Below are positions 37,487 to 50,182 of a stretch of 64,000 nucleotides of DNA, piece by piece. The notes below the pieces were generated by a model, which made no database searches, had not been told where the DNA came from, and worked only from the letters and a program-made list of their open reading frames with translations. Made by a program: the position numbers and the translations under genes. This DNA is from Polyangiaceae bacterium (GTDB lineage: Bacteria > Myxococcota_A > Polyangia > Polyangiales > Polyangiaceae): positions 1 to 64,000 of the forward strand of contig JAQSWN010000013.1 of assembly GCA_029266615.1 (NCBI GenBank), given 5' to 3'. Position 1 is the stretch's first letter. Each line of letters begins with the position of its first letter.

Positions 37487-37960
37487 CTACTCCTCGACCT
37501 CGACCTCGACCTCGACCTCGATGTCGAAATGGTAGACGTCTTCGCGCGTCCCGAGCTTCGTGTACAGCGCTACCGCGGGTGCGTCGGGCGGGTCGGCTTG
37601 GACATAGACCACGTAGGCGCCTCGCTCCCGGCCGATGGCGCGCAGAGCGTTGATGAGCGCGGTCGCGAGCCCCGCGCGCCGGTGCGCCTCCGCCACGGCC
37701 AAGTCGTAGATGTAGATCTCGCTGCGCTCTTGCTCGAATTTTCGTAGCTCGTACGCGGCCAGCCCTCCAACGACCTCGTCTCCCTTCAGCGCCACCAGGG
37801 CGATGAACGTAGGGGTTGCCAGCAGGGTGTTCAGGTACGCGTCGCTGGGTCTTTTCGAGTCATAGGCGTCCGGATCCTCGAACGCCGCGCTGAACATCGT
37901 GAGCATGCCATGGGCGAGCGAGACATCGCCGGGGCGGAGCTGGTGGACGCGGTAAGTCAT
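37487..37960 (-). CDS. AAC(3)-I-like aminoglycoside N-acetyltransferase (GNAT)
   Basis: 157 residues with strong resemblance to AAC(3)-I enzymes: SDAYLNTLLATPTFIALVAL, YELRKFEQERSEIYIYDLAV, HRRAGLATALINALR (acetyl-CoA loop), GAYVVYVQAD and DAPAVALYTKLGTREDVYHFDI (in part). These enzymes acetylate the 3-amino group of gentamicin-type drugs. In a soil myxobacterium it may be intrinsic resistance or act on another amine. The C-terminus is an odd acidic EVEVEVEVEE tail made by a hexamer tandem repeat. ATG 37960 fits the family start. There is no integron or IS beside it. Confidence 0.85.
   Translation of the reverse strand: MTYRVHQLRPGDVSLAHGMLTMFSAAFEDPDAYDSKRPSDAYLNTLLATPTFIALVALKGDEVVGGLAAYELRKFEQERSEIYIYDLAVAEAHRRAGLATALINALRAIGRERGAYVVYVQADPPDAPAVALYTKLGTREDVYHFDIEVEVEVEVEE
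37492..37521. repeat. Five tandem CCTCGA hexamers
   Basis: Five perfect 6-bp units lie just inside the 3' end of the acetyltransferase gene and encode its Glu-Val tail on the minus strand. Length changes would stay in frame. Confidence 0.85.
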
Positions 37961-38037
37961 TCGCCCCGGTACGGCGCGCACCCGCGAGCGGTCACCGGCC
38001 GCCGAAAAAATTTTGCATGTGCCACACCTGGCGGAAA

Positions 38038-39585
38038 TCAGGGCGGGGGAGACTCGCTCTGACCCTTGTCGTTAGCACCCCAGCACACGACGCTGTTGTT
38101 TTCGCGGAGGCCGCAGCTGTGGCCGCCACCCGCGGAAACAGCGAGGAAGTTACCCCGCGGCGCATCTATTCTTCCGTCTTCCTCGTTCCCCCAGCACAGC
38201 GCGCTGTTGTCCGCTTGAATGCCGCACGTGTGCTCGATACCGGCCGAGACGCTCCTGAACCGACCGCCTGGAGTCATGCCGGTCGTGAGGCCCCAGCAGT
38301 AGAGGAAGCCATCGGCCCGCACGCCGCAAGCATGCCAGTAGCCCGCGTCGATGCTGGAGAGCTCTATCTCTTGATTGACCTGGGTTTGCCCGTACTGATC
38401 GTTGCCCCAGCAGGTGGTCACGCCTTTGCCGTTCAGCGCGCACGCGAAGTAATATCCGGATGCTACGTCCACGAAGCCGCTCTCTTGCGGCTCTTCTAGG
38501 ACCAGTAAGCTCTCCTCGCCCTTCCCCCAGCAGGTCAAAGTAGAGTCCGCTTTGACCCCGCAGCTGGTGCTGAATCCGCCCGCGCTCACGTCCAAGAACC
38601 TGCTCGTGGGCGCATCCGCCTTGCCGTACGCGTTGTCACCCCAACAGGCGGCGCTGCCGTCCGGTCTGAGGCCGCACTGGTGCAGCACCGCGCCGTCGAT
38701 CGTTTCGACCGTCTCTTCCGTCGGCGTGATCTGTCCCCATTCGTTATTGCCCCAACAGTAGACCGTATGGTCGCCGCGCAACGCGCAGCTGTGGGTCTCG
38801 CCGGCCATGACGCCGATGTAGCGCGTGAGTTGGCAGCGCTCGCCGCGGTAGCGCTCAGGACATTCGCAGCTGTAGCTCGTGCCCGCGAGGGAGCATTTGC
38901 CGCCGTTCAGACAAGGGTTCGGCGTGCAACCGAGGACCGGGACCTCGCACGTCTCTCCGCTGAACCCGGCCGGGCATTCGCACACGAAGCCGCCCACTCC
39001 GTCTTGGCACGTGCCTCCGTTCTTGCAGGGCGCGTTGGCGCACTCGTCCACGTTCTCTGCGCAAGTCGGGCCCTCGAAGCCCGGCGCGCACGTGCACACG
39101 AAAGTGCTGGACGCTTCGGCACAACTGCCGCCACCCTCGCAGGGGTTCGGCTCGCATGGGGTCGCCTTCGTCTCGCAGCTCTTGCCGGTGAAGCCGCTCG
39201 GACACGCGCAGACGTAGTCCCCGACGCGGTCTCCGCAGACCCCGCCGTTCTTGCACGGGCTGCTCGCGCAGTCGTCCACGTTCTGCTCGCACTCGTCTCC
39301 GCCGAAGCCGGGCGCACACTCGCAGTGGGGCGCGCCGTCGTCCGTCACGCAGCGCGCGGTGTTCTGGCACACCAGGTTCCCGCAGGTGGACGAGCCGTCG
39401 TTCATGGTGCCGGCCGTGCCGGCGGTATTAGCGGTGCCGGCCGCGCCCGCGCTACCAGCGGCGCTGCCCGGCTCCACGCCTTCGAATTGCTTGCCGCCAC
39501 ACGCGCTCGCCCACGCCAAGGGCGCGACCAACGCGAGCCACAGCGGTGCGACCTGCCGAACCGACTTCGCCAGCATAGCCTTCAT
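38038..39585 (-). CDS. Lipoprotein with five EGF modules and RCC1 repeats
   Basis: 515 residues. Signal peptide ends ASAC, then an Ala/Gly/Thr linker. Five EGF-like modules follow (C-x-PNPCxNGGxC...CxCxxGFxGxxCE); two begin NVDDC/NVDEC as calcium-binding EGFs do. From ~270 to the end are about seven ~35-45-residue RCC1-type repeats (HSCALRGDHTVYCWGNNEWGQ; HACGVRADGFLYCWG), a likely seven-blade propeller with paired Cys. Both module types are better known from eukaryotes but recur in myxobacteria. Likely a surface interaction protein. ATG 39585 gives the best signal peptide. Confidence 0.85.
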   Translation of the reverse strand: MKAMLAKSVRQVAPLWLALVAPLAWASACGGKQFEGVEPGSAAGSAGAAGTANTAGTAGTMNDGSSTCGNLVCQNTARCVTDDGAPHCECAPGFGGDECEQNVDDCASSPCKNGGVCGDRVGDYVCACPSGFTGKSCETKATPCEPNPCEGGGSCAEASSTFVCTCAPGFEGPTCAENVDECANAPCKNGGTCQDGVGGFVCECPAGFSGETCEVPVLGCTPNPCLNGGKCSLAGTSYSCECPERYRGERCQLTRYIGVMAGETHSCALRGDHTVYCWGNNEWGQITPTEETVETIDGAVLHQCGLRPDGSAACWGDNAYGKADAPTSRFLDVSAGGFSTSCGVKADSTLTCWGKGEESLLVLEEPQESGFVDVASGYYFACALNGKGVTTCWGNDQYGQTQVNQEIELSSIDAGYWHACGVRADGFLYCWGLTTGMTPGGRFRSVSAGIEHTCGIQADNSALCWGNEEDGRIDAPRGNFLAVSAGGGHSCGLRENNSVVCWGANDKGQSESPPP

Positions 39586-39726
39586 GGGTCCCACGCCCGG
39601 GCGAATCGAGTCAAGTCCTTCGGCGAATCGGCTGCCGCTCCGCTTGGTTAGGCTGCCTCCGCTGGTTACGAAAGCTCACATTTCTACAGTGAACGACTCT
39701 TCCCTAGGATGGCTACGATGCGCTCC

Positions 39727-39892
39727 ATGAACGAGGTGGTGGAGTTGCGGCTGCTCGGCGTCGGGGACGAAGCGCAGCTGCTGTCTTTTCTAGCGCCTCG
39801 CTGGCTTGCTTCCGACACGCTCTGGGTGGCGCCGCGCCTACGAGGCGCTCGGCTACCGCATCATCGGCGACTTTGGCCTGGTTCTTTTTTAA
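39727..39892 (+). pseudogene. GNAT acetyltransferase relic
   Basis: ATG 39727 encodes MNEVVELRLLGVGDEAQLLSFLAP, a GNAT-like N-terminus. At about 39838 the natural C-terminus AYEALGYRIIGDFGLVLF appears in another frame and stops at 39892. The acetyl-CoA-binding core between them is gone, so an internal deletion with frameshift made this non-functional. It is not the same gene as the AAC(3)-like one. Confidence 0.65.
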
Positions 39893-39937
39893 GGTAGCCG
39901 CTCGCCGTGGCCGCGTAGCACGGCGCGCCGAACTGGT

Positions 39938-41458
39938 TCAGCTCGCAGAGCGGAGGGCACCTTGGGTCGAGTACTTTTCGAGCAAGGTGGTCATCGCGGC
40001 CCGCGACTCCGCCGCGAGTGGGCCCTGCCGCGCGTCGAGCTCTTCGAACGACCTGCAGAGCGCGGCCTGCACGTTCGCAGGTAGTGTGCGCGCCGCTCTT
40101 TCGAACAGGTCATGCTCTTCGTGAGCCATGTGAGAATACAGAAAGTGGATGAGCTCGCCCGCCACGCCAACGAAGTTGCGCGCGTCATCCCGTGACCATT
40201 CGTTGCGCTGGCTCGCGAGGTGCGTGAGCACCTGAATGAAGTAGTGCTCCTGCCGATGCTCGCGTCGCATGACTGCGAGCGGTCCGTCGTACCAATCGAA
40301 GCCGTGGGCCGCGAGGACCGGGGTCAAAATCGACTCCTCCTTCTCGTGGTGCCCGAGTTCTCCACAGTCGGCCAAGAATGTCACGATGGTCCGGAGCTCC
40401 GTACGGTCTATCGGGGTGCCTTCGCCTGCTACGCCAGCGAGCGTTCCCAGCACCCGGAGTACCCGGTCCATGTACGCGTGCTCCTTCGTCAGGTGCTCGA
40501 AAGGGTCGCTGCGACGCGGCCGCGTGGCCGCCAAAGGTGGGGCTTGCACTTCCTCCTCGCAGGGAAAGTAACAGGTCGAGATCGTCGAGCTCAAACGGGC
40601 TAGCTGTTCCGATAATTGCGCGGTGGGCTGACGCGGTAGCGCCTCCGCGGACCGCCCCGCGGCGAAGGCGGTGGCGAGCGTCACTCCTAGCTGCTCGCCG
40701 ACTGGCCGCGCGCGCGGCAGGTGCGTTAGTTGGCGCTGCACTACTTGGAGGCAGTGCGCGACCGCTCGCGGGCAGCTCGTGTCTGACATCGCGAGCGCGA
40801 GCAGCCGTGGCAGCTCCGCCTGATGATGATGGTGGCGCCGGTATGCCGAGTGCAGGCCGATGGCGTGTAGGAGCCCAGTCCAGCGCACGTCATCGTAGGC
40901 GCGCTCCCAGCCCGCGGGAGACAGCACCGGCGTGAGGGCGGCGATGGACCGAACCAACATGTCGGCGCGCTCGATGTTGCAACCCATCTCCAAGAAGGCG
41001 AAGGCGTTGTCGTGGGTCATGCTGCGTTGCCGTTCTCCTTCGAAGCGGTTGCCCAGCGCCAGCGTCGCCTCGAGCGCCTCCAGCAGCGCCCCTTCCGACC
41101 CTGGAGCGTTCTCCTTGAGCTGCTGGACGAGCATCCCTACTGTCGTCCAAAGCTCGACGGGCGCGACCACCCGCGCGACCCGGAGATTTTCGCGTGCCGC
41201 GAGCAGGGCCCCGAGAACGCTGGAGCGGTTGTCTGGGTCGAGGACCAGTTGGCGTAGCGCCTCCGAACGGTCACGCTGGCTCGCCGCGTCTGGGGTCCGG
41301 TCCATGAGCGCGAACAACGGGCCGAGCTCGAGCTTCCGAGAGGCGGATAAGTCGAAGCTCAGCCGCTCGTACCCGAGCACCACCCGCGCCAAGGCTTGTG
41401 AGCGTTCCACGTATCGCCCGGTCCAAAACATCGCTTCTGCCACGCTAGAGAGCAACAT
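39938..41458 (-). CDS. Alpha-E domain protein fused to a hemerythrin domain
   Basis: 506 residues. Residues 1-300 are an Alpha-E domain (MLLSSVAEAMFWTGRYVERS, RQRSMTHDNAFAFLEMG, NIERADMLVRSI), the all-helical partner of circularly permuted ATP-grasp ligases. Residues ~320-470 are hemerythrin-like: HLTKEHAYMDRV, GELGHHEKEESIL, MRREHRQEHYF and HMAHEEHDLF supply the His/Glu ligands for a di-iron O2/NO-binding site. The start lies two bases after the ATP-grasp stop, so both are one operon. ATG 41458 matches the usual Alpha-E start. I know of no common fusion of this type; O2, NO or iron control of the ligase is inferred. Confidence 0.85.
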   Translation of the reverse strand: MLLSSVAEAMFWTGRYVERSQALARVVLGYERLSFDLSASRKLELGPLFALMDRTPDAASQRDRSEALRQLVLDPDNRSSVLGALLAARENLRVARVVAPVELWTTVGMLVQQLKENAPGSEGALLEALEATLALGNRFEGERQRSMTHDNAFAFLEMGCNIERADMLVRSIAALTPVLSPAGWERAYDDVRWTGLLHAIGLHSAYRRHHHHQAELPRLLALAMSDTSCPRAVAHCLQVVQRQLTHLPRARPVGEQLGVTLATAFAAGRSAEALPRQPTAQLSEQLARLSSTISTCYFPCEEEVQAPPLAATRPRRSDPFEHLTKEHAYMDRVLRVLGTLAGVAGEGTPIDRTELRTIVTFLADCGELGHHEKEESILTPVLAAHGFDWYDGPLAVMRREHRQEHYFIQVLTHLASQRNEWSRDDARNFVGVAGELIHFLYSHMAHEEHDLFERAARTLPANVQAALCRSFEELDARQGPLAAESRAAMTTLLEKYSTQGALRSAS

Positions 41459-41460
41459 GT

Positions 41461-42951
41461 TCAAGCTCCAATTCTTTGGTCGTCGCACACGATCCAGGTG
41501 TCTTTACTGCCCCCGCCTTGGGACGAGTTCACTACGAGAGAACCTTTGCGGAGCGCGACTCGCGTGAGGCCTCCGCGAGTGACGTACCCCGTCTCGCCGC
41601 TGAGCACGAACGGTCGCAAGTCGAGATGTCTCGGCTCGACGCCGTCTTCGCAGAGCGTGGGCGCGGTCGACAAGGAAACGATGGGCTGGGCCACGAAGTT
41701 TCGCGGGTTCGCCAGCACCGCTTCGCGGCAGCGCGCGCGTTCGAGCACGCTCGCCGCGCTGCCGACCATGATGCCGTATCCGCCCGACTCATTGACCGGC
41801 TTCACCACGAAGGATTCGAGGTCGCTCAGCACATGCTGGCGATGCGCAGCGTCGATCATGCGGTACGTTTCGACGTTCTGTATCAGGGGTTCTTCGCCGA
41901 GGTAGTAGCGGATGAGATCCGGCACGTAGGAGCAAACCAGCTTATCGTCGGCGACCCCCGCCCCCGGCGCGTTGGCGATGGCGACCTTGCCCGCCTGCCA
42001 AGCACGTAGCAGGCCCGCACAGCCGACGAGCGACGCCGCGTCCAAGACCGCGGGGTCCAGGAAGGCATCGTCGACACGTCGGTAAACGACGTGCACCCGC
42101 TCCAGCCCGGAGATGGTCTTCATGTAAACGCAGTCATCGTCGAGAACGACGAGGTCGTGCCCGCGGACCAGCTCAACCCCTAGCTGCTGCGCCAGGTAGC
42201 AGTGCTCGAAGTACGCAGAGTTGTACGGGCCCGGCGTGAGCAGCACCACCGTCGGGTCGGCGACGTTGTTCGGAGCGAGGCTCTGCAGGAGGCCCGATAG
42301 GCGACTCGGATAGCCGTCCACCGGCTGAATTCGCTGCGCCTCGAACAACTCGGGAAATACGCACTTCGTGACCGCACGATTCTCCAGCATGTAGGAGACG
42401 CCGGAGGGGATTCTCAGGTTGTCCTCCAGCACGTACAGCGTCCCGTCGTCGTCTCGAACGAGGTCGCTGCCGCAGACGTGAGCCCAGACGCCGAACTTCG
42501 GCCTGACGCCTACGCATGCAGGCAGAAAGTGCTTGGAGCTCGCCAGCACCTCGGCCGGAAACACCCCGGACTTTATGACGCGCTGAGCGTTGTAAACGTC
42601 GTCGATGAAGAGGTTCAGCGCTCGCACGCGCTGCTCCAGGCCCCGTGCGACGCGGTCCCACTCGCTCTCGGCAATGATGCGGGGGATGACGTCGAATGGC
42701 CAGTCCCGGTCCACGTTCTGCCGCTCCGAGTAGACGGTGAAAGTAATGCCCAGCGCCCTGATCGTGGACTCTGCTGCGCGCTGCCGCGCCCGCAGCTCCT
42801 CGACGGTCATGCGGCTCAGGAGTGCCCCCACGCGGCCGGCGAACGATCGTGGCTCGCCTTCGCTCGAGACGAGCTCGTCGTAGCCCTTGTTTACGGAGTA
42901 GTTGAGAAAGCTCACGACTCGGGCAAGAGCAAGGCGCGCGCCAATCGTCAC
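41461..42951 (-). CDS. Circularly permuted ATP-grasp type 2 protein
   Basis: 496 residues from GTG 42951. Recognisable blocks are YDELVSSEGEPRSF, FTVYSERQNVDRDWPFDVIPRI (in part), DDDGTLYVLEDNLRIPSGVSY, LTPGPYNSAYFEH, VHVVYRRVDDAFLDP, FVVKPVNESGGYGIMVG and HLDLRPFVL. This family is predicted to ligate amino acids or peptides (amidoligases), commonly encoded with Alpha-E and transglutaminase proteins. Here the Alpha-E partner follows at once but no transglutaminase is present. GTG codons slightly downstream could also serve as start. Confidence 0.87.
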   Translation of the reverse strand: MTIGARLALARVVSFLNYSVNKGYDELVSSEGEPRSFAGRVGALLSRMTVEELRARQRAAESTIRALGITFTVYSERQNVDRDWPFDVIPRIIAESEWDRVARGLEQRVRALNLFIDDVYNAQRVIKSGVFPAEVLASSKHFLPACVGVRPKFGVWAHVCGSDLVRDDDGTLYVLEDNLRIPSGVSYMLENRAVTKCVFPELFEAQRIQPVDGYPSRLSGLLQSLAPNNVADPTVVLLTPGPYNSAYFEHCYLAQQLGVELVRGHDLVVLDDDCVYMKTISGLERVHVVYRRVDDAFLDPAVLDAASLVGCAGLLRAWQAGKVAIANAPGAGVADDKLVCSYVPDLIRYYLGEEPLIQNVETYRMIDAAHRQHVLSDLESFVVKPVNESGGYGIMVGSAASVLERARCREAVLANPRNFVAQPIVSLSTAPTLCEDGVEPRHLDLRPFVLSGETGYVTRGGLTRVALRKGSLVVNSSQGGGSKDTWIVCDDQRIGA

Positions 42952-43080
42952 CCCACGCGCATAGACCGGTCAAAAGCGACGCGAAACATCGGGGCAACGC
43001 GCAATGCCCGCGAGGTGGCGCAGCGATTGCGCACGCAGTGCTCGTTTCGTAGCTGGTGTAGAAGTTGCCTAGGGGCGGGC

Positions 43081-43485
43081 ATGGACGACGACTCCGAAAG
43101 CCTCTCCACACTGTCACTCGCCGAGGTGATGAGCATGCCTGCCATCGCGATCGGACCCGACCTGAGCGCCGCGGAGCTGCGGCTGTTGGCCCAAGAGCAC
43201 GAGATTCACCACTTCCCCATCGTGCACGAGGGCAGGCTCGTGGGGATCGTCTGCGTGAGCGACTTGGAGGGAGACGCCCCGGAACACCCGGTCATGGATA
43301 GAGCTTGGCGGCACGTCGTCACGGCGACGCCACCGAGCTCTGCCGACGACGCAGCGAGGCTCATGCGGCTGCACGGCGTAAACTCCGTGGTCGTGGCAGA
43401 TGAAGAGGGAGTCTGGGGCATCGTCACGCGTGACGACCTGCTCGAAGCCGATCCGGAGTTGGCGAGACTGCTGGTAGACTCATGA
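43081..43485 (+). CDS. Small protein of two CBS domains
   Basis: 134 residues: CBS1 is SLAEVMSMPAIAIGPDLSAA with IHHFPIVHEGRLVGIVCVSD (in part), CBS2 runs from VVTATPPSSADDAARLMRLHGVNSVVVAD (in part) to GIVTRDDLLEADP. Paired CBS modules bind adenine nucleotides. Alone they act as regulators of partner proteins. The gene is divergent from the ATP-grasp operon (130 bp apart). The frame is open far upstream but that part is antisense to ATP-grasp; ATG 43081 is the start. Confidence 0.85.
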   Translation: MDDDSESLSTLSLAEVMSMPAIAIGPDLSAAELRLLAQEHEIHHFPIVHEGRLVGIVCVSDLEGDAPEHPVMDRAWRHVVTATPPSSADDAARLMRLHGVNSVVVADEEGVWGIVTRDDLLEADPELARLLVDS

Positions 43486-43726: not shown

Positions 43727-46700
43727 ATGCAAACTCACTCCGAAGACACGAAGCCGCTCGAGCTCAACCGTTATGTGAACCTGAAGCTCGCCGCGCTCGG
43801 CGTACCCACTAGCGCCGAAGTCGGTGACGGCGAGTTCCTGGAAGTCACCCGCCCGCTCCTACGCAATCATTTCGAGAAGGACGAGCTGCTTGGCTGGCCG
43901 CTGTGCCCCGTGGATCGGCGCATTCAGAGCTACCTCGAGAGTTACTTGAACGACGTGAGCCCGGACGGCGTACCCCAGCTCCCCCGCCGAACTTTGGTGC
44001 TGGACCGGCAGGGACTTGGGCGGTTGCTGTCCCTGCCGAATAAAGGTGACGAGTTCAGGTCGCCGTTCCTCACGTCGTATCGCATCGAACAGGGCGTGCT
44101 GCATAACCCCAAGAGTGATAGGCGGACCACCAAGGGCGTGTTTCACGTCGCGGAGGGCGGCTTCCCGGTGCCTGTCGACAAGCAGGCGGTCCCGAAGCAG
44201 ACCTTGGCGCGGCTGCTCGCGGCTGCGTTCGCGCCGCCGCCAGACGTACTCACGCTGCCGTTCACGGCGGCGGAGCCCGAGGGCGCGCAGCTCTTCGTCT
44301 CGCTGCTCCTACGTCCGCTGGTGTGCCCAGCGACCGCGACCGAGCCGGAAAAGCGCATGGAGGTGCGTTTCATTGCCCCCGGTAGCCTCGTGAGCAATCT
44401 GGACTTCGTCGAAAGCATCTTCGGGAATGCGGGCGACCCCTTTCTGAGCGAAAACGATGCCGCCCTGGATCCCGCTTCTTGGACCGGTCACACCGGCTGC
44501 GTGATCCTGGCCCCGCACCTCGTCGGCCTCAAAAAGGTCGACGTCGGCCTGCCGCACTACGACATCGCCACCGAGCGCCAGCGCCGCGACGGCATGTGCT
44601 ACCGCGACGCCGACGAGCTCTACAATGACGGCAATGCGTTCAAGATCACTTGCCGCGACTCTCGCGGCGTGATCGTGACCGTGATCGCCGACAACTATTA
44701 TGGTTACTGCAAAAAAGAGGTGAAGACGCAAATCAGCTACTCAGCCAACTTGTTCGGTTCGTGCGAAGAAGAGCACGCTGGCGGAGTGCTGGCCTTCCCG
44801 AGCTACGTTCTCGGTCTCACCTTCCATGCCAGCGCCGGCCTTGAGCTCAAGCCCACCACGTTCGTGAAAGCGCTCGAGCTCTTGGGAGAGCGGGCTCGAC
44901 TCCAGCCCGAAGGCTACGCTGTAGACGCCGCGTACGCGGACGTCTTTTACGTTCCCGAGGACGCCGCGTTCAGCGTGCAAGAAGGGTTGGTGCGCTTCCG
45001 TGCCGGCGGCGAAGAGCGGACGCTGACACTGCGGCCCGAGCACGTGTTCGTGCTACCGTCCGGCTACCGCGTTCAGCTCGAGAAGCACCCGCACGGGCCG
45101 TTTTTTCGCCTCGTCGGTACACGGGCGGAGGGCGTGCTCTGCCACAAGCCGTGCACGGTGTCAGGTGGCGGCAAGAGCGAAATTTCGAAGTCGCTCAAGC
45201 CGATGCTGCAGCCCGCGCCCGTATTCGTAAAAGACTTCGACCACGACTTGGCCAAGGTGGTCGAGATCTGCAAGCGCGACTTCTCCGGTTGTTTCAGAGA
45301 GCCCCCGGTGGACGGCAGAGCTACGCGTGCGCTGCTGAGCCCCGAGCGGTCACTCGGCTCGGTGGTCAAGTTGCTGACTCCCTCCAGCGACTACACGGAC
45401 GAGCACAACGCCTGGTTGCACGCTCTCCCTCAAACGATTCGAGAGCTCGTGTTCATAGTGAAGCGCCTCTATCGGCCGGAGTGGGGGGACGACATTCGAG
45501 CGCACTTCAGCGTGGACAGCGTCAATGGTTACGCGGGCCACGAGCTCCGCTTCGAGCAACAGCGGCTGCTCACGAACCAGTTGCGCGTTGGCTTCGAGGC
45601 GGGGAGTGCCACGTGGCGCATGTTCAAGCTACGGCCCGATTTTCGGCCGAGCGACAAGGTCCAGATGGAGGACGACATCACCGCCTCCGCGGTCGTGCCC
45701 CGGACGCACGTCCACGGCCTCTCCGCCGGCCACCCCCGCCAGAGCGTGAAGATTGTCGCAAACTGCGAAGAGTACCTGTTTCAGCGGCCGGACGACGCGG
45801 TCCTTCGGGGCTTCGACGCCCAGGCAGAGGCCGACCTGGCCACTCCGGGAACGTTCATCACGAACTTCGAGCCACTCGATCGCTCGCAGGCTAGGGCGCT
45901 CGTAGACAAGGTCGCCGAGCTCGAGCTGTTCACGCCGCCCGTCAAGCAGCTCCTCAGCGACTTCGTACATACGCCTCGCACCAGCTACGTCGTGTCCTCC
46001 GCTCACCCGCGCATGGTAGACGGCAAGCCTTCGAAGAACCCGCGCTATCTGCAGCGCCGACCGGACCGCGTGAACCACCGCGACGCGTACTTGGCCGAGG
46101 TCGTGGGGCGCCTCGACGGAGAGGTGCCGCTCGACAAGCCACTGCTGAAGGTCGTGCACGCGGTGCTCTCTGGCCGCCGCGCGAACCGGGCGCAGCCAGA
46201 GATCTCCTTGCCGCCCCTCGCGGCGTTCGGCCCACTGCACTACCAAGAGCTCCCTGAGCTGTTCATGGACTTCCTGAGCAGCTTGACGGGCAAGTCGCCG
46301 TCCACGACCGGCTTCGGCAGCGAAGGAGCGCTGACCAAGGCGCCGTTCAACGCGGTTTGGCCCGTCGTCGACATGAACAACGCGGTGGTCTCCGCCATCC
46401 TGACCGAGTACGCTGGCTTCACGAGCGTCGCCGGTCAATTGGGGCCGCGCTACCGAGTGGACCACGACGTGAGCATGCTCGTGCCGGAGGTTTGGTGCCG
46501 CATGAGCGAGCGCGAGCGCGAGGCCGGGTTCCTCATCGAGAACGGCTACTTGGAGAAGGTCGACGACTTCGAGCTCGGGGGTCGCACGGTGCTCGCCAGC
46601 CGGCTCGGCTACCGCATCACGCCCCGCTTCGTGGAACGCTTCTTGGGTCGAATCTTTCAAACGCCCAACGCGGTCTTCAGTGAGGACATGCTACGGCCCG

Positions 46701-47161
46701 AGCTGCAAGGGCTCGAGTCCTACGCCGCCGGCATCGACGCGATCGTCGACACCCAGACCCGAGTCGCACGCGGCTATTTCGAAGACGGCAGCGTCGAGGC
46801 GGCCTGTCCGCCGCTCAAGGCCTTGCTGCACATCATGGCGCACGGCCAGTACCAAGGCATGGCCATCGACGACCCGTGCTTCAGAGCGCTGTTCGCGCGC
46901 GCGGTCGTGGTGAAGAGCGATTGGTACCGCGAGCGGCTCGTCACCAAACAACGCCGCGACATCGAGCTATTTCGCCGCCACGCCGCTGCCCTCGACGAGA
47001 AGCTTCGTGGCGCGGCTCGGCCCTCCCCGGAGCTGCTCGAGCGGCGAAGGTTCGTCGCGCGGGAGCTCGAGCGAGTGAGCTCCAGCGCTTATGTAGACGA
47101 GCTGGTCGGCACTATCGGTGCGGACCCCTTCCACGGCCAGTCCGACGGCACCTTGAGCTGA
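43727..47161 (+). CDS. Probable PPi-dependent phosphoenolpyruvate carboxykinase
   Basis: A 1144-residue cytoplasmic protein without signal or membrane helices. Its length and blocks such as DNYYGYCKKEVKTQISYSA (~322-340), EEEHAGGVLAFPSY and CHKPCTVSGGGKSEISKS (472-489, P-loop-like) match my recollection of PPi-type PEPCK (EC 4.1.1.38) of Entamoeba and propionibacteria, which interconverts PEP, CO2 and phosphate with oxaloacetate and PPi. It shows no general similarity to ATP- or GTP-PEPCK. The following gene, 21 bp downstream, is an AspT-type dicarboxylate antiporter, which fits C4-acid metabolism. If not PPi-PEPCK, it is a large uncharacterised enzyme. Confidence 0.68.
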   Translation: MQTHSEDTKPLELNRYVNLKLAALGVPTSAEVGDGEFLEVTRPLLRNHFEKDELLGWPLCPVDRRIQSYLESYLNDVSPDGVPQLPRRTLVLDRQGLGRLLSLPNKGDEFRSPFLTSYRIEQGVLHNPKSDRRTTKGVFHVAEGGFPVPVDKQAVPKQTLARLLAAAFAPPPDVLTLPFTAAEPEGAQLFVSLLLRPLVCPATATEPEKRMEVRFIAPGSLVSNLDFVESIFGNAGDPFLSENDAALDPASWTGHTGCVILAPHLVGLKKVDVGLPHYDIATERQRRDGMCYRDADELYNDGNAFKITCRDSRGVIVTVIADNYYGYCKKEVKTQISYSANLFGSCEEEHAGGVLAFPSYVLGLTFHASAGLELKPTTFVKALELLGERARLQPEGYAVDAAYADVFYVPEDAAFSVQEGLVRFRAGGEERTLTLRPEHVFVLPSGYRVQLEKHPHGPFFRLVGTRAEGVLCHKPCTVSGGGKSEISKSLKPMLQPAPVFVKDFDHDLAKVVEICKRDFSGCFREPPVDGRATRALLSPERSLGSVVKLLTPSSDYTDEHNAWLHALPQTIRELVFIVKRLYRPEWGDDIRAHFSVDSVNGYAGHELRFEQQRLLTNQLRVGFEAGSATWRMFKLRPDFRPSDKVQMEDDITASAVVPRTHVHGLSAGHPRQSVKIVANCEEYLFQRPDDAVLRGFDAQAEADLATPGTFITNFEPLDRSQARALVDKVAELELFTPPVKQLLSDFVHTPRTSYVVSSAHPRMVDGKPSKNPRYLQRRPDRVNHRDAYLAEVVGRLDGEVPLDKPLLKVVHAVLSGRRANRAQPEISLPPLAAFGPLHYQELPELFMDFLSSLTGKSPSTTGFGSEGALTKAPFNAVWPVVDMNNAVVSAILTEYAGFTSVAGQLGPRYRVDHDVSMLVPEVWCRMSEREREAGFLIENGYLEKVDDFELGGRTVLASRLGYRITPRFVERFLGRIFQTPNAVFSEDMLRPELQGLESYAAGIDAIVDTQTRVARGYFEDGSVEAACPPLKALLHIMAHGQYQGMAIDDPCFRALFARAVVVKSDWYRERLVTKQRRDIELFRRHAAALDEKLRGAARPSPELLERRRFVARELERVSSSAYVDELVGTIGADPFHGQSDGTLS

Positions 47162-47182: not shown

Positions 47183-48811
47183 ATGTCGGAATTTCTCGCA
47201 GGGCGCCCGCTCATCGTTCTCTTCGGCGTAGCGGCGCTCGGCTACCTCATCGGTCAAGTTCGCGTGCTCGGTTTTTCACTGGGTGTCGCCGCGGTTCTGT
47301 TCGCTGGCCTGTTCGTCGGTTGGGCCGTGCCGGGCGGCGCGCTTCCAGACCTCGTCGCGCAGCTTGGCCTCGTGCTGTTCGTCTACACGGTGGGGCTCGC
47401 GAGCGGTCCCGGGTTCTTCGCATCGCTGAGGCTGCGGGGCGTGCGCGACAACGGGCTTGCCCTCGTCGCGTTGTGCGCAGCCTTCGGCGTGGCATGGCTG
47501 CTGGGCAGGTTGGCAGGTCTGCCGGGGCCACTGCTGGCCGGGCTTTTCTGCGGCGCGCTCAACAATACACCGGCCCTGGCGGCCATCACCGAGTCCATGC
47601 AAGTCGCCGGCGCCACCGCCGCTGCCCTCGCCGTGCCGGTCTTGGCATACTCCATCTGCTACCCGCTCGGCGCGCTGCTGCCGCTCGTCGCTGTCGCGTT
47701 CGCCCACCGAGTCTTCAAGGTTTCCTATGCGGCGGAGAGCATCTCGCGTGCTTACCGAGGTCACGGCGAAGAAGCGATCGTCAATACGACCGCGCGCGTG
47801 GAGCTCGACTGCGCACAGTCCGCGGGAGAGCTACATCACACACGAAAGTTGAACGTCGTCTTCTGCCGAATCCGGCGAGGGTCGCTGACCAGCGTCGTTC
47901 ACGACGAGACGTTGTTCCAGGTCGGTGATCTCGTTTCTGTCGTCGGTCCATCGAGGGACGTCGACGCCGCGGTGGCGCTTCTCGGCAGCGCCTCCGCGGA
48001 GCACTTGGAGCTCGACCGTTCGGAGCTGACCTACCGGCGTATGTTCGTGTCGAACCCGGAGGTGACGGAGCGTCCACTTAGCCAGCTTCACCTGCCGCAG
48101 CGGTTCGACGCTCTGATTACCCGAGTTCGGCGCGGCGACGTGGACTTAGCCCCGGACGGGCACTTCGAGCTCATGCGGGGGGACCGAGTCCGCGTCGTCG
48201 CGCCAATCGATCGAGTGCACGAGATCGAGCGGCTCTTGGGCGATTCGGCGCGGCGCGTGGCGGAGGTGGACATCATTACCTTCGGTCTCGGGATCGCACT
48301 CGGTCTGCTGCTCGGGGCCGTGAGCATTCCGTTGCCAGGTGGCGCGAGGTTTTCGCTAGGGCTTGCCGGCGGCCCCCTGGTCATGGGTCTGATCCTCGGT
48401 CGGCTTGGACGGACGGGGCCTTTGGTTTGGTCATCGCCGTACGGAGCCAACATGACTTTGCGCCAGTTCGGGGTCGTGCTGTTCCTGGCCGGGGTCGGCT
48501 GCAAAGCAGGCAGCGCACTCTCCGCCGCCACGAGCGTGTCGGTCGTGGAGACCTTACTCCTCGGCGCTACCATTACCGCCACCGTCGTCCTCGTGACGCT
48601 GTTCGTGGGCCGCCGCGTGCTCGGCGTACCGCTGTCGGTTCTGGTCGGGATTTTGGCGGGTATTCAGACTCAACCTGCAGTCCTAGCTTTCGGAGTGGAA
48701 AAGACGGGAAAGGACCTACCGAACGTCGGGTACGCGACCGTCTTCCCCCTCGCGATGATCGCGAAGATTCTGCTCGGTCAGCTGATGCTCCAACTTGGCG
48801 GCGTCCACTAA
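47183..48811 (+). CDS. AspT/YidE-family antiporter with two TrkA-C domains
   Basis: 542 residues: five or six N-terminal membrane helices, a central cytoplasmic region of two TrkA-C (RCK-C) domains (LNVVFCRIRRGSLTS...VGDLVSVVGP; FDALITRVRRGDVDL...RGDRVRVVAP), and five or six C-terminal helices. Motifs LFCGALNNTPALAAI and GANMTLRQFGVVLFLAGVG match the aspartate:alanine exchanger family (TC 2.A.81). Members exchange aspartate or succinate with another acid. Its place after the PEPCK gene suggests C4-dicarboxylate exchange. GAGG lies ~10 bp before ATG 47183. Confidence 0.85.
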   Translation: MSEFLAGRPLIVLFGVAALGYLIGQVRVLGFSLGVAAVLFAGLFVGWAVPGGALPDLVAQLGLVLFVYTVGLASGPGFFASLRLRGVRDNGLALVALCAAFGVAWLLGRLAGLPGPLLAGLFCGALNNTPALAAITESMQVAGATAAALAVPVLAYSICYPLGALLPLVAVAFAHRVFKVSYAAESISRAYRGHGEEAIVNTTARVELDCAQSAGELHHTRKLNVVFCRIRRGSLTSVVHDETLFQVGDLVSVVGPSRDVDAAVALLGSASAEHLELDRSELTYRRMFVSNPEVTERPLSQLHLPQRFDALITRVRRGDVDLAPDGHFELMRGDRVRVVAPIDRVHEIERLLGDSARRVAEVDIITFGLGIALGLLLGAVSIPLPGGARFSLGLAGGPLVMGLILGRLGRTGPLVWSSPYGANMTLRQFGVVLFLAGVGCKAGSALSAATSVSVVETLLLGATITATVVLVTLFVGRRVLGVPLSVLVGILAGIQTQPAVLAFGVEKTGKDLPNVGYATVFPLAMIAKILLGQLMLQLGGVH

Positions 48812-48958
48812 GGGCAGCTCGGCCGCGGATAGGGACCGCCGTGGCGGCGTGCCACGGCGGGGTTCGCCGCGACGACGAGAGTTAGACATTGGGCAACTCG
48901 GCTGCTCCGGCGCGCCGAGTTGCCGCGAGCGCCTCGGGGAGTAGTCCTTAACCCACCT

Positions 48959-50182
48959 TTGGAGCTACGTAAAAAGCTCAGCATTTTGGCCGACGCCGCG
49001 AAGTACGATGCCTCGTGTGCGAGCAGCGGCTCGAAGCGCGCGACTCCGGAGCAGGGGCTGGGCAACACGAATGGGATGGGCATTTGCCACAGCTACACGC
49101 CGGACGGCCGTTGCGTTTCGCTGCTGAAGATTCTGCTCACCAATAGCTGCAGCTACGACTGCCAGTACTGTATCAACCGCAGCTCAAGTGATGTTCCGCG
49201 TGCGCGCTTCACGCCGGAGGAAGTCGCGAACCTGACCCTCGACTTCTACCGCCGGAACTACATCGAAGGCTTGTTCCTAAGCTCCGGCGTGCTCAAGTCC
49301 CCGGACGACACGATGCAGCAGCTGATCGAGGTGGCTCGGCTGCTGCGGGAGGAGCACCGCTTCGGCGGCTACATTCACCTCAAGGCGGCGCCCGGGGTGA
49401 GCGCGGAGCTCCTCGAGCGCGCCGGGACGCTCGCAGACCGCGTCAGCGTCAACGTAGAGCTCCCGACCGTGCGGGACCTCTCGGCCCTGGCTCCCGAAAA
49501 AAAGATGCCGCAAATCGAGAGCTCGATGAGCGCGCTCCGCGAAGCGCAGGTGGCGCGCGCGGACGAGCCGACGCGGTTCTTGCCGGCCGGGCAGAGCACG
49601 CAGATGGTCATCGGCGCGACGCCCGCGACGGACGCAGAGATTCTGCGAACGGCCGATCACCTTTACCGGTCGTTCAAGCTGCGCCGCGTCTATTACTCCG
49701 GCTACAGCCCCATCCCTCGGGCCGACGCTCGCCTGCCCGCGGAGCGTGCGCCGCTGGTGCGGGAGCATCGGCTCTATCAAGCCGACTGGCTGATTCGCCA
49801 CTACGGGTTTCGTCCGCAAGAGCTCACGGCGGACAACCTGGACTTGAACCGCGATCCGAAGCTCGCCTGGGCGCTCGCGCACCGTGAGTTCTTCCCGGTG
49901 GACCTCAACCGGGCGCCGCGTGAAGCGCTGCTCCGCGTTCCGGGCCTCGGTGTGCGGAACGTGGACCGCGTGCTCGCGCTGCGCCGGCATCGCGCCGTGC
50001 GGTTCGAAGACTTGAAGCGGCTCCGCGCGGCGGTGGAACGGCTCGCCCCGTTCGTCGTCACCGCGGACGCCGAGCAGCGCCATAAGCCAATACGGCTTTT
50101 GGACTCTTCCAAATTGGGGGAGCCGCCGGCTCAGCTGGATCTGTTCGCGGTGGCGAAGAGTGCACACGGCGGACAGCTTTGA
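48959..50182 (+). CDS. Radical SAM protein, predicted DNA modification/repair
   Basis: About 407 residues from TTG 48959, where similarity to the family begins (LELRKKLSILADAAKYDASC); TTG 48920 would add 13 residues. CSYDCQYC gives the CxxxCxxC site for the [4Fe-4S] cluster that cleaves SAM. GLFLSSGVLKSPDDTMQQL and YYSGYSPIP follow the family (TIGR03916-like). A C-terminal helix-hairpin-helix (NRAPREALLRVPGLGVRNVD) points to DNA binding. It overlaps udgX by four bases (TTGA); this pair recurs in bacteria and is inferred to act on damaged or modified DNA. Confidence 0.85.
   Translation: MELRKKLSILADAAKYDASCASSGSKRATPEQGLGNTNGMGICHSYTPDGRCVSLLKILLTNSCSYDCQYCINRSSSDVPRARFTPEEVANLTLDFYRRNYIEGLFLSSGVLKSPDDTMQQLIEVARLLREEHRFGGYIHLKAAPGVSAELLERAGTLADRVSVNVELPTVRDLSALAPEKKMPQIESSMSALREAQVARADEPTRFLPAGQSTQMVIGATPATDAEILRTADHLYRSFKLRRVYYSGYSPIPRADARLPAERAPLVREHRLYQADWLIRHYGFRPQELTADNLDLNRDPKLAWALAHREFFPVDLNRAPREALLRVPGLGVRNVDRVLALRRHRAVRFEDLKRLRAAVERLAPFVVTADAEQRHKPIRLLDSSKLGEPPAQLDLFAVAKSAHGGQL

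Follow-up and report, generated by a model that had tools for sequence, protein, structure and literature searches.

We have analyzed a stretch of 64,000 nucleotides (positions 1 to 64,000 of contig JAQSWN010000013.1, called the window from here on) from the draft genome of a Polyangiaceae bacterium. It contains a two-gene locus in which a circularly permuted type-2 ATP-grasp ligase (CPAG) is followed by an Alpha-E protein that continues, in the same reading frame, into a hemerythrin-like (HHE) domain. The parts all belong to known families, while the Alpha-E/hemerythrin fusion is apparently undescribed. The reading that we rate highest, a tentative preference somewhat short of an even chance, is that of a two-gene amide-ligase cassette gated by the di-iron domain carried on Alpha-E, in response to redox state, O2/NO or iron. 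The features of the locus are as follows.

39938..41458, minus strand: Alpha-E + hemerythrin fusion protein, 506 amino acids (aa), ATG start (Pfam, translation, GC by codon position)
41461..42951, minus strand: CPAG, first gene of the pair, 496 aa (Pfam, relative of 3n6x)
40565..41455, minus strand: Alpha-E domain, residues 2-298 (PF04168)
40505..40564, minus strand: linker, residues 299-318 (alignments, linker DNA, low model confidence at 295-312)
40097..40504, minus strand: HHE domain, residues 319-454 (PF01814), holding H327, H370, E374, H401, H443 and E447
39941..40096, minus strand: residues 455-506, an extra helix at the C-terminus following the HHE domain (alignment; helix 149-193 of the domain model)

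The original prediction, made from the letters of the sequence, had described an Alpha-E protein fused to hemerythrin and lying two bases from its ligase gene, and both observations hold. The fusion is a single open reading frame (ORF) of 506 aa with Pfam matches to Alpha-E (PF04168, residues 2-298, 167.5 bits against a cut-off of 20.8, E 7e-49) and to hemerythrin (PF01814, 50.8 bits on the protein against a cut-off of 25.3, E 3e-13; 54.1 bits at 40097-40504 in the genomic scan). With both domains above their curated cut-offs and all six of the ligand positions described below conserved, the fusion is more than a product of chance. The stop codon of the CPAG gene ends at 41461 and the ATG of the fusion gene is at 41458 on the same strand, and this gene order and two-base spacing imply that the two are co-expressed. 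No stop interrupts the fusion frame in the linker, and the GC content at codon position 3 (GC3) is higher than at position 2 (GC2) at each 50-codon step. The contrast shrinks at the joint (0.76 vs 0.62, then 0.72 vs 0.56, codons 276-325). On this strand, stops interrupt one of the two other frames (codons 286, 289 and 323), and the remaining frame is stop-free over codons 189-424. In the alignments, the linker lies where Alpha-E proteins usually end and stand-alone hemerythrins usually begin. The DNA of the linker carries an AGGAGG two bases ahead of an in-frame GTG (V304), perhaps the relic of an old ribosome-binding site; the spacing is short for a working one. In the alignment, the extra helix at the C-terminus (455-506) is partly common to the stand-alone hemerythrin relatives.

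A complete-looking hemerythrin domain with His/Glu ligand motifs had also been described, and this is supported. H327, H370, E374, H401, H443 and E447 do not vary among the 10 aligned rows (the fusion and nine relatives), and the same six remain invariant when the alignment is extended to 12 rows. The di-iron ligands of YtfE are His84, His129, His160, His204, Glu133 and Glu208 (PMC9052748). HMMER aligned five ligands of the fusion protein to five of these, and the sixth, H327 in helix A, was assigned from its conservation and position. Judged by these alignments, the HHE domain holds the complete 4His-2Glu di-iron ligand set of the YtfE type. In the full-length AlphaFold2 (AF2) model the four helices 319-345, 352-384, 392-416 and 423-458 each carry ligands. 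This model is good for the HHE part (pLDDT about 95) and for Alpha-E residues 1-140 (about 90), and poor at residues 140-310. Foldseek searches with it were mostly unspecific and, for these two reasons, a model of the HHE domain (mean pLDDT 93.1, pTM 0.87) was used instead. Its top match was 3cax (probability 1.00, TM 0.70 by query length, rmsd 2.8, E 3.7e-3), and the hemerythrin domains of YtfE and human FBXL5 followed with weaker scores amid unrelated helical proteins; no match fell below E 0.001. The same 3cax is a sequence-profile match to the domain (E 9.9e-6). The original prediction had named a ligand geometry unable to hold two irons as the result that would speak against it; this was followed up in part, through the YtfE alignment, the AF2 models and Foldseek, and these comparisons of sequences and models are compatible with a putative site for two irons.

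CPAG matches Pfam PF14403 (CP_ATPgrasp_2) with 517 bits (E 3.5e-155) and has a solved relative, 3n6x, that covers residues 21-490 (E 4.8e-152). A type-2 CPAG followed directly by Alpha-E is expected of a CPAG/Alpha-E amidoligase pair, and that is the arrangement found. The core of the enzyme is kept, with 12 departures among the 190 columns that are near-invariant in its own lineage, a tally made by column; one departure is a change of D to H at residue 287. The number is not unusual, because two of the 28 relatives show 12 and 11.

The Alpha-E half presents a different picture. Its two ER motifs are kept: E18-R19 and E163-R164 are invariant, fusion protein included, and these four residues together with D166 and R170 are among the 26 invariant positions of an 18-row alignment. 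The similarity of this half to its relatives is nevertheless below what the divergence of CPAG predicts, the lowest of 29 lineage rows and the second lowest of 83 wider rows, in sets that are not random samples, their rows having been picked in part for resembling the window protein and in part for carrying the pattern LSRVA... We considered that the divergence might be merely lineage-wide and rejected it, the window row being the most extreme of the 29. Alpha-E thus appears markedly changed in the fusion protein, and both re-tooling and decay could account for it. A profile search found no solved relative of Alpha-E.

What the HHE domain might be doing was approached through the neighbours of its stand-alone relatives, which were scanned with Pfam. 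Seven loci were counted (L089, L090, L091, L015, L092, L021 and L212); L027, with stops in the match and two neighbours lacking a Pfam hit, was left uncounted, and L016, L093 and L094 were outside the scan. Sensory or stress genes adjoin four of the seven. In the closest relative (L089, 8820-12090) the HHE gene stands directly before a protoglobin histidine kinase, followed by a response-regulator kinase; HHE and the protoglobin kinase might form a double gas-sensing module. A universal stress protein (Usp) adjoins the HHE gene in L090 and L091, and in L015 the order is sigma54 activator, Usp, HHE, response regulator. Because regulatory or stress genes adjoin four of these seven relatives, a sensory role is favoured over a biosynthetic one for this HHE subfamily. 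The O2-, NO- or iron-responsive ligase originally proposed fits these sensory neighbours; the gating of a ligase would be a further step that goes beyond them.

The search for other proteins with this architecture was made by genome draws from five phyla and by contig scans, and none was found elsewhere. In the draws (4-15 first-look candidates scored per genome, limits of 1e-20 or 1e-22 in six of the seven), the whole protein gave a match spanning both domains only in its own genome among 97 relatives, 183 genomes of the order and 377 of the phylum, three sets that overlap and contain that genome. There was none in 299, 277, 276 and 274 genomes from the phyla of the Tepidiphilus, Solibacteraceae, Nonomuraea and Lacipirellula records, respectively. 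A contig scan over 84,980 species with the fusion protein gave 13 pattern matches and no confirmed relative. In a second contig scan, which used a single N-terminal pattern that the fusion protein itself (LSSVA) does not match, none of the best 80 of 566 Alpha-E relatives extends past query residue 313. None of 88 matching plasmid records covers 80% of the fusion query in one place. Among 209 Alpha-E ORFs in 192 of 216 sequences (215 loci and the window), the two domains occur together only in the window gene (four entries). The Alpha-E protein of L115 has a 145-aa C-terminal extension, which lacks a Pfam match at E 0.01. A hemerythrin gene beside Alpha-E, as a state preceding the fusion, was looked for and dropped, as it was found in none of the 80 Alpha-E loci (here and below, the best 80 of 566) and in none of 12 loci of the lineage. 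As for the literature, no publication joining alpha-E, hemerythrin and ATP-grasp was found among the matches listed, in a search whose coverage mostly excludes subscription literature; the main text of one survey (PMC4919030), whose scope is O2-binding hemerythrins, is without alpha-E. The claim that the combination is undescribed stands so far.

The absence of a transglutaminase, which had been pointed out as a peculiarity, is real and of little significance. With the transglutaminases of the same genome as queries (phmmer, E 1e-5), no ORF of at least 90 aa resembling them was found in the 64 kb window. This is ordinary, because no transglutaminase is present in the examined stretch of 21 of the 80 Alpha-E loci (18 with CPAG and three with Alpha-E alone, some contigs being short) and because the genome carries a full cassette elsewhere; 3 of 12 loci of the own lineage (L208, L210 and L211) are without it as well. 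We have therefore discarded transglutaminase loss as the key oddity of the locus. The extended cassette of CPAG, Alpha-E and transglutaminase includes a transglutaminase in the cluster and the window locus does not, although the gene is not obligatory. Six neighbouring proteins gave no Pfam match of the proteasome type (Anbu), and no search aimed at Anbu was made. The genome (8.88 Mb in 444 contigs, 98.2% complete, 7.04% estimated contamination) has three Alpha-E matches, and its contig C233 holds CPAG, Alpha-E, a DUF2126-type transglutaminase, a CPAG+Alpha-E fusion and a small transglutaminase together. The canonical Alpha-E of C233 (L004, 12643-13737, minus strand) has a Thr-Gln low-complexity insert of about 30 residues, absent from the 17 other rows of the alignment. 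Another ligase fusion of the same genome is found on contig C267 (L099, 7389-9929, plus strand), an 847-aa protein that joins GCS2 (glutamate-cysteine-ligase-2) and CPAG.

The two halves of the locus seem to have different origins. The window CPAG is 52% identical to that of C233 and apart from it in two trees (100/100), where its clade contains beta/gammaproteobacterial and actinobacterial forms as well as a single member of the host order, G072; its grouping with actinobacterial rows has support of 97/80 and 93/94 in the two trees. Among the CPAG loci of 14 relatives, only L077, from G072, scores the window CPAG above the C233 one. The CPAG/Alpha-E pair would thus be foreign to the host order, in which this type is rare, and was perhaps gained laterally. 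The HHE half, on the contrary, is closest to proteins of the host order. Matches to HHE alone (E<=1e-22) appeared in 6 of 183 genomes of the order vs 1 of 1126 in the four draws from other phyla, in which five candidates per genome were scored vs eight in the order draw. The best stand-alone relative found is that of L089 (42% identity). Six other PF01814 loci are present in the own genome; none is a blastp relative of this HHE domain at E 1e-3, so it is possibly the only copy of its subfamily there, and four of them are weak profile matches (15-25 bits). The fusion might have originated when the CPAG/Alpha-E pair became joined to a neighbouring native hemerythrin gene through loss of the stop codon between them.

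In the gated cassette that we favour, CPAG would form an acyl-phosphate with ATP and then join it to an amine, Alpha-E would bind CPAG or its substrate, and the hemerythrin domain would bind two irons and change with O2, NO/nitrite, redox or iron supply. Amide-bond formation would be switched on or off by the state of this domain. To our knowledge, no study has yet settled what CPAG/Alpha-E systems make or what Alpha-E does. Synthesis of peptides by these pairs was predicted by Iyer et al. 2009, as relayed by PMC5666114 and PMC3597751, and release of phosphate from ATP is reported for the CPAG of Yersinia bercovieri (PMC6376114). Such genes are reported from other organisms in the response to nitrogen limitation, which makes nitrogen or respiratory stress the likely setting. 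For Burkholderia cenocepacia, a tabulated NtrC regulon includes Alpha-E and CPAG genes (PMC5491218); for Pseudomonas putida, a transcriptome table comparing ammonia and nitrate lists CPAG along with Anbu genes (PMC8050072). Anbu is also described as high under nitrogen starvation (PMC6376114). The logic would be that of FBXL5 and BRUTUS, where a tagging ligase is under the control of a hemerythrin-like domain; the bacterium would have arrived at it independently. The fuller version, in which a bacterial amide ligase directly gated by an Alpha-E-borne hemerythrin, convergent with FBXL5/BRUTUS, would tie the tagging of peptides or proteins to O2/NO/iron status and to nitrogen stress, we consider unlikely.

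Several facts weigh against a gated ligase. The fusion is a single example from one draft assembly and, as it was found in no other genome searched, selection on it is not demonstrable. Alpha-E is changed at 13 of 38 columns near-invariant in the lineage (at most three in each of the 28 relatives), so this half may be losing its old function. The exact place of CPAG in the trees is unsure because of its long end branch. No sensory gene adjoins the HHE gene in L092, L021 and L212 (three of seven, or four of eight with L027). Expression of the Anbu operon proteins is described as constant across various conditions, including nitrosative stress (PMC5666114), and, with Anbu as bait, co-expressed Yersinia operon proteins are reported to give no specific interactions (PMC6376114). 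Such di-iron domains need not be sensors, since YtfE shares the ligand set and has been reported to be a nitrite reductase that generates NO (PMC9052748). Finally, iron binding, ligase activity and gating are properties that we infer for the fusion system from its sequence. The single example in a draft genome and the diverged Alpha-E half limit the weight of the finding.

Some of the same data would also be expected from a passive or decaying fusion produced by loss of a stop codon, in which either the two halves function apart from each other or the hemerythrin half alone still matters while Alpha-E drifts. Its presence in one genome only, the joint at a normal Alpha-E end and a normal HHE start, the Shine-Dalgarno-like AGGAGG in the linker, the changed Alpha-E columns and an HHE domain that may be the sole copy of its subfamily in the genome are all consistent with it; the retention of the six iron ligands, the ER motifs of Alpha-E and the CPAG core, in a frame that is open throughout with gene-like GC by codon position, speaks against it, and we regard this explanation as rather improbable. 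An artefact, either an assembly chimera or a sequencing slip merging two separate genes, is suggested by a draft of 444 contigs with 7.04% estimated contamination, by a fusion encountered once, by the second stop-free frame over codons 189-424 and by the reduced GC2/GC3 contrast at the joint. However, the frame in use has no interruption and GC3 exceeds GC2 at every step, the HHE half resembles proteins of the host order most and both halves follow CPAG on the same strand, which makes an artefact very improbable.

A tether to a biosynthetic pair is a typical trait of tailoring enzymes, and this counts for a di-iron domain that acts as a catalyst itself, whether oxidase, peroxidase or nitrite/NO reductase, and modifies or protects a product or substrate bound to Alpha-E. 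The identity of its ligand set with that of YtfE, as a reported NO-generating nitrite reductase (PMC9052748), points in the same direction. The neighbours do not: they are regulatory or stress genes at four of the seven counted relatives, and the only plausible tailoring gene among the six Pfam-scanned neighbours of the locus is a GNAT acetyltransferase (37487-37981, minus strand) located beyond the EGF/RCC1 gene described below. We take a catalytic role to be quite unlikely, and keep the gated cassette as the reading to work with.

As to the regulation of the pair, scans of 39500-43300 for sigma-70 promoters and terminators gave 0 and 0. The sigma-54 (NtrC-type) consensus TGGCRYN5TTGC is found three times in the window vs 0.94 expected, one site within the start of CPAG and one facing the divergent CBS gene. 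Three sites are reached in 7 of 100 shuffles of the window, and a sigma-54 promoter for the pair is accordingly not claimed. The site before the CBS gene, TGGCGCAGCGATTGC at 43016-43030, is equally not significant against the shuffles. That gene (43081-43485, plus strand), divergent from CPAG, codes for a small protein with two CBS-domain stretches. Downstream of the pair, the gene at 38038-39594 (minus strand) codes for five EGF stretches and then seven RCC1_2 repeats. At 43727-47161 (plus strand) there is an ORF of 1144 aa for which neither Pfam (E<=1) nor NCBIfam (E<=1e-3) gave a match. It is followed directly by this gene:

47183-48811: AspT/YidE-type antiporter, after the 1144-aa ORF

Further on, 48920-50182 (plus strand) codes for a putative DNA modification/repair radical SAM protein (TIGR03916 rSAM_link_UDG, 549 bits).

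Pairs of CPAG and Alpha-E are widespread, and reports from some species place them in the response to nitrogen limitation. A natural fusion can be read as a 'Rosetta stone', and this one suggests that di-iron sensing or catalysis is useful at the Alpha-E subunit. If iron is bound, it offers a partner protein with a spectroscopic readout during a CPAG assay and, if the gated-ligase reading is true, a handle on the role of Alpha-E.

Among known systems, the best solved structural match of the HHE domain is PF0695 (3cax), deposited as an uncharacterized protein, which we take to be archaeal and for which we know of no tie to CPAG or Alpha-E. The CPAG/Alpha-E/transglutaminase systems, with or without Anbu, are predicted to serve peptide synthesis or tagging (Iyer et al. 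2009, as relayed by PMC5666114, PMC6376114 and PMC3597751). They share with the window locus the first two genes, their order, the near-zero spacing and a conserved CPAG core; here, in contrast, a hemerythrin is carried on Alpha-E, there is no transglutaminase in the window and Alpha-E has departed more than in 28 relatives. YtfE/RIC proteins have a hemerythrin-like domain with the 4His-2Glu pattern too, but they carry an N-terminal ScdA_N domain with its Cys pair, whereas the fusion gives no ScdA_N match in Pfam, is joined to Alpha-E and scores only 29.3 bits against the cut-off of 254 of the NCBIfam YtfE equivalog. In FBXL5 and BRUTUS/HRZ a hemerythrin-like domain is also tied to a ligase making amide or isopeptide bonds, and FBXL5 with iron and O2 is described as promoting the interaction with IRP2 and then its ubiquitination (PMC12022348). 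These belong to the eukaryotic ubiquitin system and have no homologous ligase parts; in the window the domain is on the partner protein, and gating would apply by analogy. DcrH, Bhr-DGC and Bhr-HD-GYP likewise join a hemerythrin domain to an output domain, but their outputs are chemotaxis or c-di-GMP and their ligands are described as five His, one Glu and one Asp (PMC9388753), whereas here the set is 4His-2Glu and the partner an amide ligase.

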